Source: Desulfobacca sp. 4484_104
Lineage (GTDB): Bacteria > Desulfobacterota > Desulfobaccia > Desulfobaccales > Desulfobaccaceae
Direction of reading: 5' to 3'
DNA length: 64,000 nucleotides
NCBI GenBank assembly: GCA_002049795.1
Contig: MUKC01000019.1
Span: 1-64,000, forward strand
This document shows positions 5,468 to 14,342 of this stretch, piece after piece. A program made the position numbers and the translations under genes. The first letter of the stretch is position 1, and each line of letters starts with the position of its first letter. The notes beneath the pieces were generated by a model. That model did not search any database. It was given only the letters and a program-made list of their open reading frames with translations, and had not been told where the DNA came from.

Positions 5468-8254
5468 TCAGACCTCCAGCACCTGGCGACAGCGAGCGCA
5501 GAGGGTGGGATGATCGGGGTCCTCGCCGGTAGTCCGGGAATAATACCAACAGCGTTCGCACTTCTGTCCCGAAGCCTTTTCCACTTTCATAGTAAGTCCG
5601 GTGATTTCTTGACTTTCCAGGCCAGACAAAACCTCGGGCCGGACCTCCAGCTCCGAAACCATGGTCAGGGTCAGCAATTCGGGAATGTGAGTCTGAAGCT
5701 GATCGTAGAGGGAACCAGTCGCCCCCAGGGTCACTCGGGCTTCCAGGGAGTTACCGATCAGCTTCACCCGCCGGGCCTCCTCCAGGGCGCGATAAATCTC
5801 TCCTCTGACCTTAAGCAAAATCTCCCATTTGCTCAACAACTCCTCGTCCGGATATCCGGGCTGGGGCTCGGGAAAGGCCGCCAGGTGGACGCTGGGCTCC
5901 CGGTCGCTGCCGGGCAGATAACCCCAAATTTCCTCGGCAGTAAACGACAGGATCGGGGCCATCAGCCGGATGAGACTGGTCAGCAGGTCATACATGGTGC
6001 TCTGAGCACTGCGTCGGGCCGGGGCATCGGCCCGCGACACATAGAGTCGATCTTTTAGAATATCCAAATACAGGGCAGATAATTCTACGGCGCAGAACTT
6101 ATGCAGGCGATGGTAGGCCCGGTGGAATTCGAAGCGATCGTAGGCCTCCCGCACCCGCCGGATGAGCTGCGCCAGCCAGGACAAGGCCAGCCGGTCTAAT
6201 TCTTCCCGCTCGGCCGCAGGCACTAGATACCGGTCGGGGTCAAAATCAAATAAGTTACCCAGCAAAAACCGGGCGGTGTTGCGGATGCGACGGTAGGCCT
6301 CAGTGAGCTGTTTGAGAATCGGATCGGAAAGCCGCACATCATCGCGATAATCCTCGGCCGCCACCCAAAGCCGCAGGATTTCCGCCCCAAAGCGTTGGAT
6401 CACATCCTGGGGCGCAATGACATTGCCCAAGGATTTGGCCATCTTCTTGCCTTCGCCATCTACTGCAAAACCGTGGGTTAACACCCCCCGATACGGGGCC
6501 TGACCGCGGGTCGCCACCGCGGTTAACAGGGCGCTGTGGAACCAACCGCGATGTTGATCCGAGCCTTCCAAGTAAAGGTCAGCCGGAAACCGCAGACCGG
6601 GATTGGTCTCCAACACTGCGGCAAAACTGACCCCGGAATCGAACCAGACATCCAGGATATCGCTCTCTTTGTTAAATTCGGTGCCGCCGCACTGGGGGCA
6701 GCGGCTCCCGGCGGGCAGTAAGTCCGCGGCCTGGCGCTTAAACCAGGCATCGACCCCTTCCCGGGCAACCAAATCGATGATATTATCGATGATTTCCTGA
6801 TCAAGCAGAATCCGGCCGCAATTCTGGCAATAGAAAGCGATGATCGGCACTCCCCAGGCCCGCTGCCGGGAAATACACCAGTCCGGGCGATTTTCGACCA
6901 TGCCATAGATGCGCTCCCGCCCCCAACGCGGCACCCAGGTCACCTGATCAATGGCCTTGAGGGCCTTAGCCCGAAGATCATTATGGTCCATGGAGATGAA
7001 CCACTGCTCGGTGGCCCGGAAGATGACCGGCTGCTTGCAACGCCAGCAATGCGGATAGCTATGGCTGATCTTTTCCATCCCCAAGAGCGCCCCCCGTTTT
7101 TTCAGGAGTTCAATGATATGGGGATTCGCCTCCCAGACCTGCTGACCGGCAAACTCCGCTATTTCGGGAAGAAAGCGGCCGTCATCGTCCACCGGGGAGT
7201 AGGTCTCCAACCCATAGCGCCGACCGCTGTCAAAGTCCTCCTGACCGTGGCCCGGGGCAATATGGACCAGCCCGGTACCGGCTTCGAGGGTTACATAATC
7301 GGCCAGGATCACCTGCGACTGACGATCAATCCAGGGGTGTTGGCAGATCAGCCCTTCCAGGCGGGTGGCCGGAATCCGCACTTTTTCCACGCCGGATAAA
7401 CCCAAGCTCTGGAGCACCAGTTCGGCCAAGTCCACGGCTAAAATCAGGATTTCCTCGCCTACTTGCAGGGCAGCATACTCAAATTGGGGATTCAGGGCAA
7501 TGGCCAGGTTGGCGGGCAGCGTCCAGGGGGTGGTAGTCCAAATTACCAGCGAGATCGGGCGGCCGGCCAGTTCCGGATAATCCGCCGCTAGATCAGATAA
7601 TAAGGCAAACTTTACGAAGATCGACGGGGTTTCGTGGTCGTAATACTCGACTTCGGCTTCGGCCAGAGCGGTATGGCAGATGTTGCACCAATAGATCGGT
7701 TTTTTGCTGCGATAAATCGCCCCAGATAGAGCGATGCGCCCGTATTCCCGTATAATCCTGGCGACATAGTCATTGGTCATGGTCAGGTAGGGATGTTGCC
7801 AATCGCCCAGGACCCCCAGGCGGATAAACTCCCGGCGCTGAATATCCACAAACCGGAGGGCATATTCCCGGCAGCGCTGACGAATCTCGGGCCGCGCCAG
7901 TTGCAGCCCCTTGGCTTTGGTCTGTTTGTCAACCTCATGTTCAATCGGTAGTCCATGGCAGTCCCAGCCCGGCACATAGGGGCAATCAAAGCCGCTCATC
8001 TGGCGCGATTTAATGATGATGTCCTTCAGAATTTTATTCAGCGCATGGCCGACATGAATATGACCATTGGCATAGGGCGGGCCGTCATGGAGAATATAAC
8101 GCGGCCGTCCCTGATTCCGGGCGCGCAGTTGCGCGTAAAGATCAATTTCTGCCCAGCGCCTTAAGATCTCGGGCTCCATCCGGGCCAGATTGGCCTTCAT
8201 GGGGAACTTGGTCTGGGGCAGATTCAACGTAGCTTTGTAATCAATGGCCATCAA
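5468..8254 (-). CDS. ileS: Isoleucyl-tRNA synthetase
   Basis: Class I aminoacyl-tRNA synthetase that charges tRNA-Ile in the cytoplasm. The ATP-binding HIGH motif appears as HVGH at residues 67-70 (PPYANGHIHVGH), and the KMSKS loop as KMAKSLGN near residue 605. The editing domain contains VIWTTTPWTLPANLA. The C-terminus keeps the zinc ribbon CERCWYY ... LCARC, so this is the bacterial zinc-containing form. Length is 928 aa. It heads the block ileS-lspA-lgt-cdsA-dxr-rseP. The 228-base leader upstream shows no T-box that I can recognise. Confidence 0.97.
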   Translation of the reverse strand: MMAIDYKATLNLPQTKFPMKANLARMEPEILRRWAEIDLYAQLRARNQGRPRYILHDGPPYANGHIHVGHALNKILKDIIIKSRQMSGFDCPYVPGWDCHGLPIEHEVDKQTKAKGLQLARPEIRQRCREYALRFVDIQRREFIRLGVLGDWQHPYLTMTNDYVARIIREYGRIALSGAIYRSKKPIYWCNICHTALAEAEVEYYDHETPSIFVKFALLSDLAADYPELAGRPISLVIWTTTPWTLPANLAIALNPQFEYAALQVGEEILILAVDLAELVLQSLGLSGVEKVRIPATRLEGLICQHPWIDRQSQVILADYVTLEAGTGLVHIAPGHGQEDFDSGRRYGLETYSPVDDDGRFLPEIAEFAGQQVWEANPHIIELLKKRGALLGMEKISHSYPHCWRCKQPVIFRATEQWFISMDHNDLRAKALKAIDQVTWVPRWGRERIYGMVENRPDWCISRQRAWGVPIIAFYCQNCGRILLDQEIIDNIIDLVAREGVDAWFKRQAADLLPAGSRCPQCGGTEFNKESDILDVWFDSGVSFAAVLETNPGLRFPADLYLEGSDQHRGWFHSALLTAVATRGQAPYRGVLTHGFAVDGEGKKMAKSLGNVIAPQDVIQRFGAEILRLWVAAEDYRDDVRLSDPILKQLTEAYRRIRNTARFLLGNLFDFDPDRYLVPAAEREELDRLALSWLAQLIRRVREAYDRFEFHRAYHRLHKFCAVELSALYLDILKDRLYVSRADAPARRSAQSTMYDLLTSLIRLMAPILSFTAEEIWGYLPGSDREPSVHLAAFPEPQPGYPDEELLSKWEILLKVRGEIYRALEEARRVKLIGNSLEARVTLGATGSLYDQLQTHIPELLTLTMVSELEVRPEVLSGLESQEITGLTMKVEKASGQKCERCWYYSRTTGEDPDHPTLCARCRQVLEV

Positions 8255-9638: not shown

Positions 9639-10829
9639 ATGATGGGCATCAAGCGTTACCTGAAATACTTGGTTCTAGGCGGCATATTGCTGGTTCTGCT
9701 CGGCGGCGGCTGGTGGTGGCTGGCCGAGCGCAGGCCGCGGGTCCGCTATCAGTTGGAGCCCGTACGGCGTACTGACCTGGAAGTCAAGGTAGTCGCCAAT
9801 GGCACCTTGAACCCAGTAACCACCGTCCTGGTCGGCACGCAGGTCACCGGCATGATCAAGAAAATCTATGCCGACTATAATTCCGAGGTCAAAAAAGGTC
9901 AGGTGATTGCCCAGATCGATCAGGCCTTGTTCAAGGCCCGAGTGGATCAGGCCCAGGGTAATTATCAGGTGGCCCAGGCTAATGTCCTCAAAGCCCAGGC
10001 CAACCTGGAGGACGCTCGCAACGATTATCGGCGTTATCAGACTCTGTGGCAACAGAATCTGGTGGCGCGCGATGATTTCGACAATGCTTATACCCGTTAT
10101 GAAACCAGCCGCGCCGAGTTGCGGGCCGCCCAGGCGCAGGTGGCCCAGGCCGCGGCCAATCTCAAAAGTGCGGAAACCGATCTGCAATATACCACTATCA
10201 TGTCGCCCGTGGACGGAGTAGTGGTGTCCCGCAATGTCGATGTCGGCCAGACCGTGGTGGCCAGTTTCCAGACCCCCACCCTGTTTAATATTGCCCAGGA
10301 TCTGACCAAGATGCAGGTTGATACTTCCGTGGATGAAGCCGATATCGGCAAGGTCAAAGAAGGCCAGACCGCCACTTTTATGGTCGATGCCTATCCGGGG
10401 CGGAGCTTTACCGGCCAGGTCACCCAGGTTCGGCTGTCTCCCCAAACCGTGCAAAACGTCGTCACTTATAATGTCGTGATTGAAACCGAAAACCCTGAAT
10501 TTCTCCTCAAACCCGGCATGACCGCCAGCGTCGATATTCTAGTCACCCGACGGCAACAAGTGCTGGCGGTGCCGAACGCCGCTCTCCGCTTTCGGCCGTC
10601 GGCACCGGCTGACGTCGCTATCCCGGAGGGAAGCCATGTCTGGCGTCTGGACGCTGATCAGCGTCCGGTCCCCGTACCCCTGGTTACTGGTCTCAGCGAT
10701 GGCCAATGGACTGAGGTGCTGGAGGGTGACCTAACTATCGCTGATCAGCTCATTGTCGCCCAGATATCAGGCACGGACGCGGCCGAGCAGGGACGCCGGA
10801 CCCCAGGGGGCCGACGGCGCCCGTTTTAA
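9639..10829 (+). CDS. HlyD/MacA-family periplasmic adaptor
   Basis: Membrane-fusion protein that would bridge an inner-membrane exporter and an outer-membrane channel. One N-terminal membrane anchor (about residues 8-28, rich in Leu and Gly, ending WWWLAE) is followed by the first lipoyl half, a long alpha-helical hairpin rich in Ala and Gln (about residues 95-185), the second lipoyl half (TTIMSPVDGVVVSRNVDVGQ) and beta-barrel domains. The C-terminus is basic (GRRTPGGRRRPF). Length 396 aa is usual for MacA. It is the first gene of a three-gene operon, with the ATPase beginning 10 bases downstream. The substrate cannot be read from the sequence. Confidence 0.88.
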   Translation: MMGIKRYLKYLVLGGILLVLLGGGWWWLAERRPRVRYQLEPVRRTDLEVKVVANGTLNPVTTVLVGTQVTGMIKKIYADYNSEVKKGQVIAQIDQALFKARVDQAQGNYQVAQANVLKAQANLEDARNDYRRYQTLWQQNLVARDDFDNAYTRYETSRAELRAAQAQVAQAAANLKSAETDLQYTTIMSPVDGVVVSRNVDVGQTVVASFQTPTLFNIAQDLTKMQVDTSVDEADIGKVKEGQTATFMVDAYPGRSFTGQVTQVRLSPQTVQNVVTYNVVIETENPEFLLKPGMTASVDILVTRRQQVLAVPNAALRFRPSAPADVAIPEGSHVWRLDADQRPVPVPLVTGLSDGQWTEVLEGDLTIADQLIVAQISGTDAAEQGRRTPGGRRRPF

Positions 10830-10839
10830 GACTCCCATT

Positions 10840-11553
10840 ATGGCCTTAATCCGATTGCACCAGGTTGCCAAAACCTATAGCCGCGGGGTCTATACCGTAG
10901 CGGCCCTGCGGGACATCAATCTCGAGTTAGAAAAAGGAGAATTTTTATCTATCATGGGGCCGTCAGGGTCTGGTAAATCCAGTTTAATGCATATCTTGGG
11001 GTGCCTGGATACCCCCAGCCAGGGGCAATTCTATCTGGAGGGCGTCGATGTGTCCTCCTTAGATCGGGATGCCCTGGCCCAGATCCGCAACGAGAAGATC
11101 GGCTTTGTCTTCCAGCAATTTTATCTGCTGCCGCGGCTCAGCGCCCTGGAAAACGTGGAAATGCCACTCCTTTATACCCGCCTGGCCGCGTCCTTACGAT
11201 CGGTACGGGCTCGGCAAGCCTTGGCGCAAGTTGGACTGGCCGGACGGGAAGAGCACCTACCCTCGGAGCTTTCCGGCGGCGAGCAACAGCGGGTGGCCAT
11301 TGCCCGGGCCTTGATCAATAACCCGGTCCTGCTGCTGGCCGATGAACCGACCGGCAATCTGGACACTGCCACCGGTCTGGAAATCATGGCCCTGTTTCAG
11401 CAATTGAACCAGGAGCAGGAGCTGACCATCATTCTGGTCACCCATGACCCTGATATTGCCGCCTTTTCCAGTCGCCTGCTGATGTTGCGAGATGGCCTGA
11501 TCATCAGCGATCACCCCAACCCGGCGATGCCCGTCAGACCGGCCCGGAGTTGA
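10840..11553 (+). CDS. MacB/LolD-type ABC transporter ATPase
   Basis: ATP-binding subunit of 237 aa. Walker A is GPSGSGKSS, the signature is [14 protein letters not shown], Walker B is [12 protein letters not shown] and the switch His is VTHDPDIA. The spacing and the ADEPTGNLD motif are those of the MacB/LolD/FtsE group, which work with FtsX-fold permeases. The start is set at ATG 10840 ([16 protein letters not shown]); the open frame extends upstream into the adaptor gene. No FtsX/MacB permease follows. The next gene, 1 base later, encodes an MFS transporter. Either the permease is encoded elsewhere or the ATPase has lost its original partner. Confidence 0.9.
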
Positions 11554-11554
11554 A

Positions 11555-12808
11555 ATGCCGCTATATCTGGCCGACACCTTTGTTTCTTTTCGGCATCGCA
11601 ACTACCGCCTGTTCTTCTTCGGCCAGGCCATCTCCCTGGTGGGCACCTGGATGCAAACCGTGGCCCAAGGCTGGCTGGTATTATTATTGACTAACTCGGC
11701 CTTTCTGCTGGGCCTGGTGGGGGCGCTTTCCACCCTGCCCATCCTGCTGTTTTCCTTCTGGGGGGGCGTGGTCGCCGATCATGTCAATCGCCGCACCATG
11801 GTAACCCTGACCAACACCTTCGCCCTGCTGCTGGCCCTGCTGCTCGGCCTGTTGATCTTCCGGGATTGGGTGGCCATCTGGCATATTTTGCTGATCGTCT
11901 TCGGACTGGGGACGGTCATGGCCTTTGATATCCCGGCGCGGCAGTCCTTTATTGTGGAATTAGTCGGCCGGGAAGATCTGCCCAACGCCATCGCCTTGAA
12001 TTCCAGCCTGTTTAATGGCACCCGGGTCCTGGGGCCAGCGGCCGCGGGGTTGATGATTGCCTCAGTGGGCCTGGCCAACTGCTTTTTTATCAATGCCTTA
12101 ACTTATGTAGCCCCCATCTTCGGGCTGATGCTGATGCGCCTGCCGCGCTTCTCTGTGGCCCGACCCCGACCCCGGACCTGGACCGGCATGCTGGAACTGG
12201 TCAGCCATCTGCGCAGCCGCGCCGATCTGATCTGGATGCTGGTGGTCATGGCGATTATCTCGGTGCTGGCCCTGCCCTTCCTGGTGCTGATGCCCATGAT
12301 CGCCCGGGATGTTTTGGGCACCGGGGCCCGGGGCTACGGCTTCCTGATGGCCGCCACCGGCTCGGGGGCCTTTCTGGGGGCCTTGATTTTAGCAAACTGC
12401 CTCCGCCGCTACTCCCCCATGCCCTTTTTCTGGGGCGGCGCCGCTCTACTCTGTCTAGCTTTGATCTTTTTCTCCTTTTGTCGGAATTATACCCTGGCCT
12501 TGGGCTGGCTGTTTCTGGCCGGACTGGGGATGGTTATTAATATTTCGACCACGAACAGCCTGCTGCAACTCAATGTCCCGGACGCTCTGCGGGGGCGGAT
12601 TATGTCCTTGTTCAGCCTGATTCTGATTGGCCTTAATCCAGTAGGCAGTCTGCTGTTCGGCACCCTGGCCGATTACTGGGGCCCGTGCCTGACCGTGGGG
12701 CTGGGCAGCAGCCTGGCCGGGTTATTATGTGTGGTAATCTTTGGTTATCGACCGGAACTCCGAGGCTTGAGTTTTCGGGAAGAAGTGTCCGGCCACCAGA
12801 GTTATTAA
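11555..12808 (+). CDS. MFS transporter (MFS_3 / EntS-like)
   Basis: Twelve-helix major facilitator protein of 417 aa. The N-terminal pattern (FRHRNYRLFFFGQAISLVGT, then MQTVAQGWLVLLLT) and the loop 2-3 motif GVVADHVNRRTMV are typical of the MFS_3 group, which includes the enterobactin exporter EntS and many putative drug or siderophore exporters. Its ATG follows the ATPase stop by one base, so translational coupling is likely. An MFS exporter in an operon with a HlyD adaptor is known in EmrAB systems, but EmrB is a 14-helix protein of another family and no ABC ATPase is involved there. Confidence 0.88.
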   Translation: MPLYLADTFVSFRHRNYRLFFFGQAISLVGTWMQTVAQGWLVLLLTNSAFLLGLVGALSTLPILLFSFWGGVVADHVNRRTMVTLTNTFALLLALLLGLLIFRDWVAIWHILLIVFGLGTVMAFDIPARQSFIVELVGREDLPNAIALNSSLFNGTRVLGPAAAGLMIASVGLANCFFINALTYVAPIFGLMLMRLPRFSVARPRPRTWTGMLELVSHLRSRADLIWMLVVMAIISVLALPFLVLMPMIARDVLGTGARGYGFLMAATGSGAFLGALILANCLRRYSPMPFFWGGAALLCLALIFFSFCRNYTLALGWLFLAGLGMVINISTTNSLLQLNVPDALRGRIMSLFSLILIGLNPVGSLLFGTLADYWGPCLTVGLGSSLAGLLCVVIFGYRPELRGLSFREEVSGHQSY

Positions 12809-12874: not shown

Positions 12875-13366
12875 ATGGTCCCTAAATACGATGATGACGA
12901 CCGGGAACGCCCCAGTTGGCGGGAGATTGATCGCCGTAAGGATAGGTCCCGCCATGTTACCCCGCAAACCCAACGTCGCCGCGGCCGTAAAGCTGAAGCA
13001 GAACGCATCAGACAACAGGCCCTGAAAGCGGCCGAGTCTCTGTTTGCCGGGAAACGGGGGCGGCCGGAATACCAGAAGGCGCTCCGCACTTTAGAAGCAC
13101 AGCGCGGCACCCCCAAATTTCAATCCACGACCAAAAAATTTCTCGCCGAATATGGTTTGCCGGAAGAATGGAGCACCCTGATGCTGCTTTTGGATTACTC
13201 TGACCCGAAGGTGGTTAATGAAGTTTTACAAAGTCTGGCAGCTCAGGTTAAATCCCGCACCAGAGTGGAACAGCAGGGCTTGCAAGGCAAACTCCGGGCC
13301 TTGGCTCTGACCACGCAGGATCTGGAATTAAAACAAACCGCGGAAGCTCTTATCGCTGAAATTTGA
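12875..13366 (+). CDS. Conserved hypothetical basic protein
   Basis: A 163-aa protein I do not recognise by function. The first 45 residues are highly charged and basic (ERPSWREIDRRKDRSRH, then RRRGRK). The rest is predicted alpha-helical and includes FLAEYGLPEEWSTLMLLLDY and LEAQRGTPKFQSTTKKF. The basic, likely disordered N-terminus followed by a helical domain would suit a nucleic-acid or ribosome-associated protein, but this is inference. It has no signal peptide or membrane segment. The start ATG 12875 follows a GAAGGAGAA ribosome site. It converges with the globin gene across a hairpin at 13370-13396. Confidence 0.75.
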   Translation: MVPKYDDDDRERPSWREIDRRKDRSRHVTPQTQRRRGRKAEAERIRQQALKAAESLFAGKRGRPEYQKALRTLEAQRGTPKFQSTTKKFLAEYGLPEEWSTLMLLLDYSDPKVVNEVLQSLAAQVKSRTRVEQQGLQGKLRALALTTQDLELKQTAEALIAEI

Positions 13367-13437: not shown

Positions 13438-14342
13438 TTATCTGGGTCGGACTTTATTTTTGCCTTCGCTGCGGGACAGCAGCCAAGAGATAAAGCCTAA
13501 GACTAAGATGCCACCGATATAAAGCGCCTGGACAGTGATATCCTTGTGAGATATGGAAGAGATCAATTCTTCCCGGATTAAGGCCACTAGACCGACCCCG
13601 ACGAATAGATGCAGTTTAAAGGCCCCGCCTCTGAGACGATCAATTTCCGCTTCCAATAATTCAATCACCAACCATAAAACCAACAAAGAACCCAGGGCGC
13701 CGATCAGCCCTTTTTCAAATTGGCCGGAAAATACGCTGACGACGTCGATCACGATCATCACTACCGCACCTAAGGAGAGGCCCAATAAGCCGATCACCAG
13801 GGTCATATTCAGCCCGAAAGTAAAGCGGTGCGCAAAGCGGATTACGGCGTCATCCAATTTAGAGGTTAAAAACACCCGGCGTAATTCTTCTTCATGGTAG
13901 GTACGGGCAATCACATCCAGGTTGAGGTCGAGAATTTTATTCACTGCCCGTAGCGCGTTAGCTTGCAGCTCGGAATCGACCTCATCATCAATGATCAGTC
14001 GCAGGCGTTCCCGGATGAAGTTCATGGCCGCATAGACATAATGGGCCGCTAGACCGATGCGCACATGCGCGTGACCGATGCGCTGTAGGCGTTTATGGTA
14101 ACTTTCGTCAAATGTCCCTTTGAAAAGATTCAAGATCCAGTCGTGATGAGACTGACGCAGCCTGGCCAACCGGACGTCGTCCTCCAGGAAACGCGCGGTG
14201 CCGGGCATGTCTCTTAAAAAATGTAAAAATCATCAGTAATCTGACCAACGGGGGGTTCTACCCGTGGCAACAGGTGTCGGAGAGTTTCTACCTCCGGTTC
14301 CGAAAACCGGTAATGATCCTTGATATCTCTAAACGTAATCAT
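13438..14342 (-). pseudogene. Protoglobin-PsiE membrane fusion, frameshifted
   Basis: The intact part (13438-14208) encodes the later helices of a protoglobin/globin-coupled-sensor domain, including the proximal-His block RIGHAHVRIGLAAHYVYAA. A membrane domain with four hydrophobic helices follows; it resembles PsiE (phosphate-starvation-inducible E), including GSLLVLWLVIELLEAEI and FVGVGLVALIREELI. Upstream, from ATG 14342, another frame encodes the missing globin N-terminus: MITFRDIKDHYRFSEPEVE ... VGQITDDFYIF, ending at a TAA. The two frames meet at a run of six A on the plus strand (14216-14221). One more base there would restore a single reading frame of about 300 aa. So this is either a homopolymer sequencing error or a true frameshift. 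Expected role: heme-based O2/redox sensing coupled to a membrane domain. Confidence 0.7.

Follow-up and report, generated by a model that had tools for sequence, protein, structure and literature searches.

The window analysed here, a stretch of DNA of 64,000 nucleotides, carries on its minus strand (14342-13438) a gene in which a globin appears to be followed by a small membrane domain, and the questions it raises are whether the two parts are truly fused, what kind of protein they make and whether this copy can still make it. A Pfam scan found Protoglobin (PF11563) and then PsiE (PF06146), both well above their cut-offs and in the place and order that the earlier note on this DNA had proposed. 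The open reading frame at 14208-13438 (minus strand, 256 aa) scored 77.5 bits for Protoglobin (E value of 1.5e-21, cut-off of 25) and 60.7 bits for PsiE (2e-16, cut-off of 23.9), the latter match covering profile positions 6 to 121 of 122, and an intact congener protein gave 115.5 and 63.0 bits, respectively. The four hydrophobic helices expected after the globin were borne out by both membrane-helix prediction and a structural model. The NCBIfam PsiE equivalog cut-off was missed by a wide margin (18.7 versus 145 bits), and to judge by these profiles, the PsiE part is a member of the PF06146 domain family and not an orthologue of Escherichia coli PsiE.

With an intact congener as the query, the closest solved structure was 2w31, the globin domain of the Geobacter sulfurreducens globin-coupled sensor (GsGCS), with an E value of 6.6e-43, and the same entry was also the best match by fold when the predicted structure was searched (TMt of 0.91). 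The globins of the intact congeners are ∼46% identical to that of GsGCS, and the window motifs RLRQSHHDW and RIGHAHVRIG align with KLKQTHQDW and KIGHAHVRVG of GsGCS, so that the HisE11 and HisF8 positions of 2w31 equal those of the window gene. RIGHAHVRIGL had been read as the proximal-His motif from the letters alone, and this reading is upheld by its alignment with IGHAHVRVG around His93 of 2w31. In the family tree, GsGCS162 groups next to the Geobacter rows and inside the fused family. The C-terminal part of the G. sulfurreducens protein has been described as a membrane signal domain whose function is unknown. We compared GsGCS by its globin domain alone, and in its close relatives (60 to 67% globin identity) this domain is followed by PsiE; the nearest match among 48 genomes of its likely family was 67% identical, the full G. 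sulfurreducens gene not being among them. From these comparisons the gene is best classified as a member of the GsGCS family, a predicted membrane-anchored globin sensor, found here in another, Desulfobacca-like order than that of Geobacter GsGCS and with a break in its frame. Our literature search returned no paper linking a protoglobin or globin with PsiE.

The fusion has the traits of a globin-coupled sensor, namely, a protoglobin/HemAT-type sensor globin at the N terminus, the proximal HisF8 and a C-terminal domain in the same protein. It shares the sensor-globin fold and proximal His with AfGcHK, HemAT and DosC/BpeGReg, whereas the outputs of those proteins are a kinase, chemotaxis or a diguanylate cyclase and that of the fusion is a PsiE membrane domain. 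PsiE itself (phosphate-starvation-inducible E of E. coli) has a four-helix membrane domain like that of the fusion, but stand-alone PsiE proteins lack the globin. With the protoglobin of Methanosarcina acetivorans the fusion has in common the Pfam Protoglobin family and, by prediction, a dimeric globin; the M. acetivorans protein, however, is single-domain, lacks a membrane domain and is a much weaker match (E value of 0.044 or worse). A profile built from the members of the order likewise matched other globin-coupled sensor globins next and the M. acetivorans protoglobin weakly.

The earlier note had considered the combination uncommon, and this does not hold: it is spread widely through the phylum and belongs to the GsGCS family, for which a globin structure has been solved and the bis-histidyl chemistry published. 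The fusion was found in 19 of the 29 genomes of the order, and when the phylum was searched with the GsGCS globin, 52 of 395 genomes matched, the open frames being ∼300 aa or longer in almost every case; in one Geobacter-like family, 34 of 48 genomes matched. A named collection of 80 loci, all of ∼300 aa, extends from Desulfobacca-like bacteria to Geobacter, Geomonas, Oryzomonas, Trichlorobacter and Pelobacter. Homologues with the two domains always in separate genes would, according to the earlier note, have spoken against the fusion, but all 27 diverse members that we scanned with Pfam keep both in one protein, and of the 20 protoglobin places in nearby genomes, 18 are fused frames, one is the broken copy of the window and one is a single-domain protoglobin. 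The last, of ∼200 aa, shares its genome with a copy of the fusion.

In one respect the window copy departs from what had been assumed, a single continuous protein. The gene spans 905 bp, which is not a multiple of three, compared to 906 bp in the congener L002, whose intact protein of 301 aa is 93% identical to that of the window; both congeners have intact frames of ∼300 aa. One C present in the congener gene is absent from the window (TTTTTACATTTTTT in the window and TTTTTACCATTTTTT in the congener), and because of this the first 42 codons (14342-14217) lie in a different frame from the rest and end at a TAA, two codons after the deletion (Table 1). A full protein from this copy therefore requires a change of frame. 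A −1 slip on the run of six T residues that follows the deletion (both within 14214-14232) would restore the frame, and we considered a programmed frameshift for this reason; we rejected it because the intact congener has the same run and the change is the absent C before it, so that the coincidence of run and deletion is likely to be fortuitous.

Table 1. Features of the window gene and its surroundings, and loci of the family sharing a trait or a gene neighbour
Feature	Position or loci	Strand	Remarks
One-base (C) deletion site relative to L002	14223..14224	-	Window TTTTTACATTTTTTAAGAGAC, L002 TTTTTACCATTTTTTAAGAGAC; just before the T6 run
N-terminal 42 globin codons, including the presumed Tyr B10	14217..14342	-	MITFRDIKDHYRFSEPEVETLRHLLPRVEPPVGQITDDFYIF, then TAA; aligns with the start of intact congener L002
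256-aa ORF: remaining globin and PsiE membrane domain	13438..14208	-	ORF list and Pfam
Protoglobin domain in the main frame	13885..14229	-	Profile positions 40-156; HisE11 in RLRQSHHDW, HisF8 in RIGHAHVRIG
PsiE domain (PF06146)	13465..13800	-	Membrane helices predicted: four; D at the end of TM1, E in TM2 and R in TM3 are conserved
163-aa gene	12875-13366	+	
Efflux-like row	9639-12808		
Single-domain protoglobin in a nearby genome	G007:C7:54239-54748		
E7-only rows	L076, L133, L137-L139, L142, L143, L145-L149		Columns 62 and 66 of the family alignment
hypD-linked rows	L055, L057, L058, L060, L062, L063, L065, L068, L070, L071, L074, L075, L077-L089, L091-L099, L122, L123, L125, L135		E.g., fusion of L096 at 6001-6897
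hemH-linked rows	L047, L050, L052-L054, L059, L066, L069, L120, L121, L150, L151, L154, L155, L159, L160		
ndk-linked rows	L167-L170, L174-L176, L182, L184, L185		

The frame break could mean that the window copy is a decaying pseudogene without function, and the deletion with its nearby stop would fit this. Such a state would concern this genome only and is compatible with a heme-sensor function of the family. We nevertheless regard it as doubtful, given that the lesion is single, with no other in the gene, and that the assembly is a draft in 181 contigs, in which a sequence error is possible. The codon differences between the window and L002 also speak against decay: 46 are synonymous and 25 nonsynonymous, mostly at third positions and on both sides of the lesion, a pattern indicative of purifying selection between the two copies on either side of the break. 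Since the synonymous-rich differences lie on both sides, the break is recent or an error of assembly; in other words, the window copy is broken by one base, through either an assembly error or a recent mutation.

The residues expected to bind heme are well conserved across the family alignment of 104 rows. HisF8 is present in every row, the window included, and a Tyr occupies the presumed B10 position in 98 rows. HisE11 is found in 84 rows, with ∼19% of the members lacking it. In GsGCS, HisE11 and HisF8 provide bis-histidyl hexacoordination (Pesce 2009, as cited in passages of PMC4476040 and PMC9237108). The distal His lies at column 66 (E11) alone in 83 rows, at column 62 alone in 12, at both in 1 and at neither in 8, and thus the two positions are nearly mutually exclusive; the label E7 that we give to column 62 follows from its spacing, one helical turn back from E11. 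The 12 E7-only rows form one clade in the tree (support of 100/93), in which the distal His has apparently moved by one helical turn from E11 to E7. Such an apparent shift inside one family amounts to a natural experiment on heme coordination.

The membrane part has its own set of invariant residues in the family alignment (R173, G177, L178, L186, G218, L221, W224, E228, L229, G239, F247, R257, G283 and L288 in L002 numbering), and an alignment read by eye shows an Asp at the end of TM1, a Glu in TM2 and an Arg in TM3 to be common to the fusion and to the stand-alone PsiE proteins of the phylum. In the predicted structure, a single helix (residues 124 to 205) runs from the H helix of the globin into TM1. 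Lys and Arg residues in L002 number 3 before TM1, 3 in loop 2 and 4 at the C terminus and 1 each in loops 1 and 3; a topology with both termini and loop 2 in the cytoplasm is favoured. Modelled alone, the membrane part reached moderate scores (pLDDT of 76.7 and pTM of 0.53). A search of this model against the PDB gave no fold match better than an E value of 0.67, and a search by sequence found no solved relatives of the PsiE part.

Because the fusion is real, is kept in all of the homologues scanned and has conserved heme ligands, the natural reading is the heme-controlled membrane protein suggested earlier, although the uncommonness claimed for it was not upheld and neither was its value as a clue to PsiE function, given that gene context varies by lineage and that no solved structure was matched by the model of the PsiE domain. 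The gene product is probably a heme sensor anchored in the membrane and belonging to the GsGCS family of globin-coupled sensors, in which a cytoplasmic b-heme globin would sense O2, NO, CO or redox state and be coupled to a membrane output. We propose that the globin lies in the cytoplasm, that its G and H helices form the dimer interface and that its ferric heme, assuming that this member binds heme, is held by the His residues at E11 and F8. The E11 ligand would then be released when O2, NO or CO binds or when the heme changes its redox state, the resulting movement could travel along the continuous H helix and linker into TM1 of the PsiE bundle, and the bundle may in turn pack differently or alter how it contacts a partner. 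While the GsGCS globin was solved years ago, the role of its membrane part has stayed unexplained; that this part can be named PsiE in all of the close GsGCS relatives tested joins two orphan questions and places a heme sensor whose ligand chemistry is known on a membrane domain also present in E. coli and many other bacteria.

What is new lies mostly in the relatives of the window gene, one group of which has the fusion inside a hydrogenase-maturation operon. In one clade of Desulfuromonadales/Geobacterales, 36 of 39 rows keep the order hypB-hypF-hypC-hypD-fusion-HAD, with neighbours confirmed by Pfam and at protein identities as low as 57%, and the fusion starts 5 to 88 bp after the end of hypD. 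Other lineages have other neighbours: a histidine kinase lies convergently downstream in 13 rows of the Desulfobaccales clade, ferrochelatase (hemH) does so in several Geobacteraceae, and in the E7-His clade, ndk is mostly found 6 to 89 bp upstream and rlmN downstream, within a conserved run of further genes. One universal partner can be rejected on the grounds that these contexts (histidine kinase/RidA, hemH, hyp and ndk-rlmN) are lineage specific. Because gene context is constant inside a lineage but differs between lineages, it assigns no single function to the family, and since no neighbour is constant throughout, it indicates no signalling partner. Genomes of lineages in which the fusion is not linked to hyp genes mostly have hypD, with the fusion gene located elsewhere; in the window's genome, hypD likewise lies elsewhere (G000:C112). 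We also asked whether the fusion takes the place of hypE in the hyp operons and rejected this, given that hypE was found elsewhere in all 6 genomes checked, a set drawn from hyp-linked and unlinked groups alike.

The main rival to a sensor is a membrane-bound heme enzyme or electron carrier, whose bis-His heme would exchange electrons with quinone or remove NO or reactive oxygen near the membrane. Bis-His hexacoordination suits redox chemistry as well as it does sensing, according to the literature on GsGCS162, the output domain does not correspond to any recognised signalling module, and cofactor genes (ferrochelatase or hyp) adjoin the fusion in some lineages. The 104-row alignment, however, contains no conserved His in the membrane part and so no signature of a second heme or of a quinone site of this kind, no reductase partner is constant among the neighbourhoods, and the nearest solved relatives are sensor globins, and we therefore consider this function unlikely. 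For the hypD-linked clade, the fusion might instead serve the maturation of [NiFe] hydrogenase, as a part of it or as its regulator: maturation would be gated through it by O2 or redox state, or it would handle CO or electrons on behalf of HypCD. The conserved operon order and short spacing described above would agree with such a role, and both the source of CO under anoxia and the electron donor of HypD are still open questions (PMC12134894). Yet the linkage is confined to one clade, while other lineages, that of the window among them, mostly have hypD but carry the gene elsewhere, operon position alone is no proof of function, and with HypE encoded elsewhere in all 6 genomes checked the gene does not replace it; we accordingly hold this role to be quite improbable. 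If it were true, the PsiE domain would act as a module in the membrane under the control of a heme sensor. The hyp linkage in this clade makes available a concrete assay of physiology, namely, hydrogenase maturation in the presence and absence of O2.

In the window, the gene sits between a class A penicillin-binding protein gene on the same strand and a 163-aa gene on the opposite strand, beside an efflux-like cluster, and the congener L021 has the same gene order as judged by gene length. The 163-aa gene has no Pfam or NCBIfam match, and a gene of equal length adjoins the fusion in L021. The cluster consists of genes for an HlyD-type membrane-fusion protein, a 266-aa ABC ATPase and an MFS_3 transporter in a row, with no ABC permease gene between them, and a similar order is found in L021.
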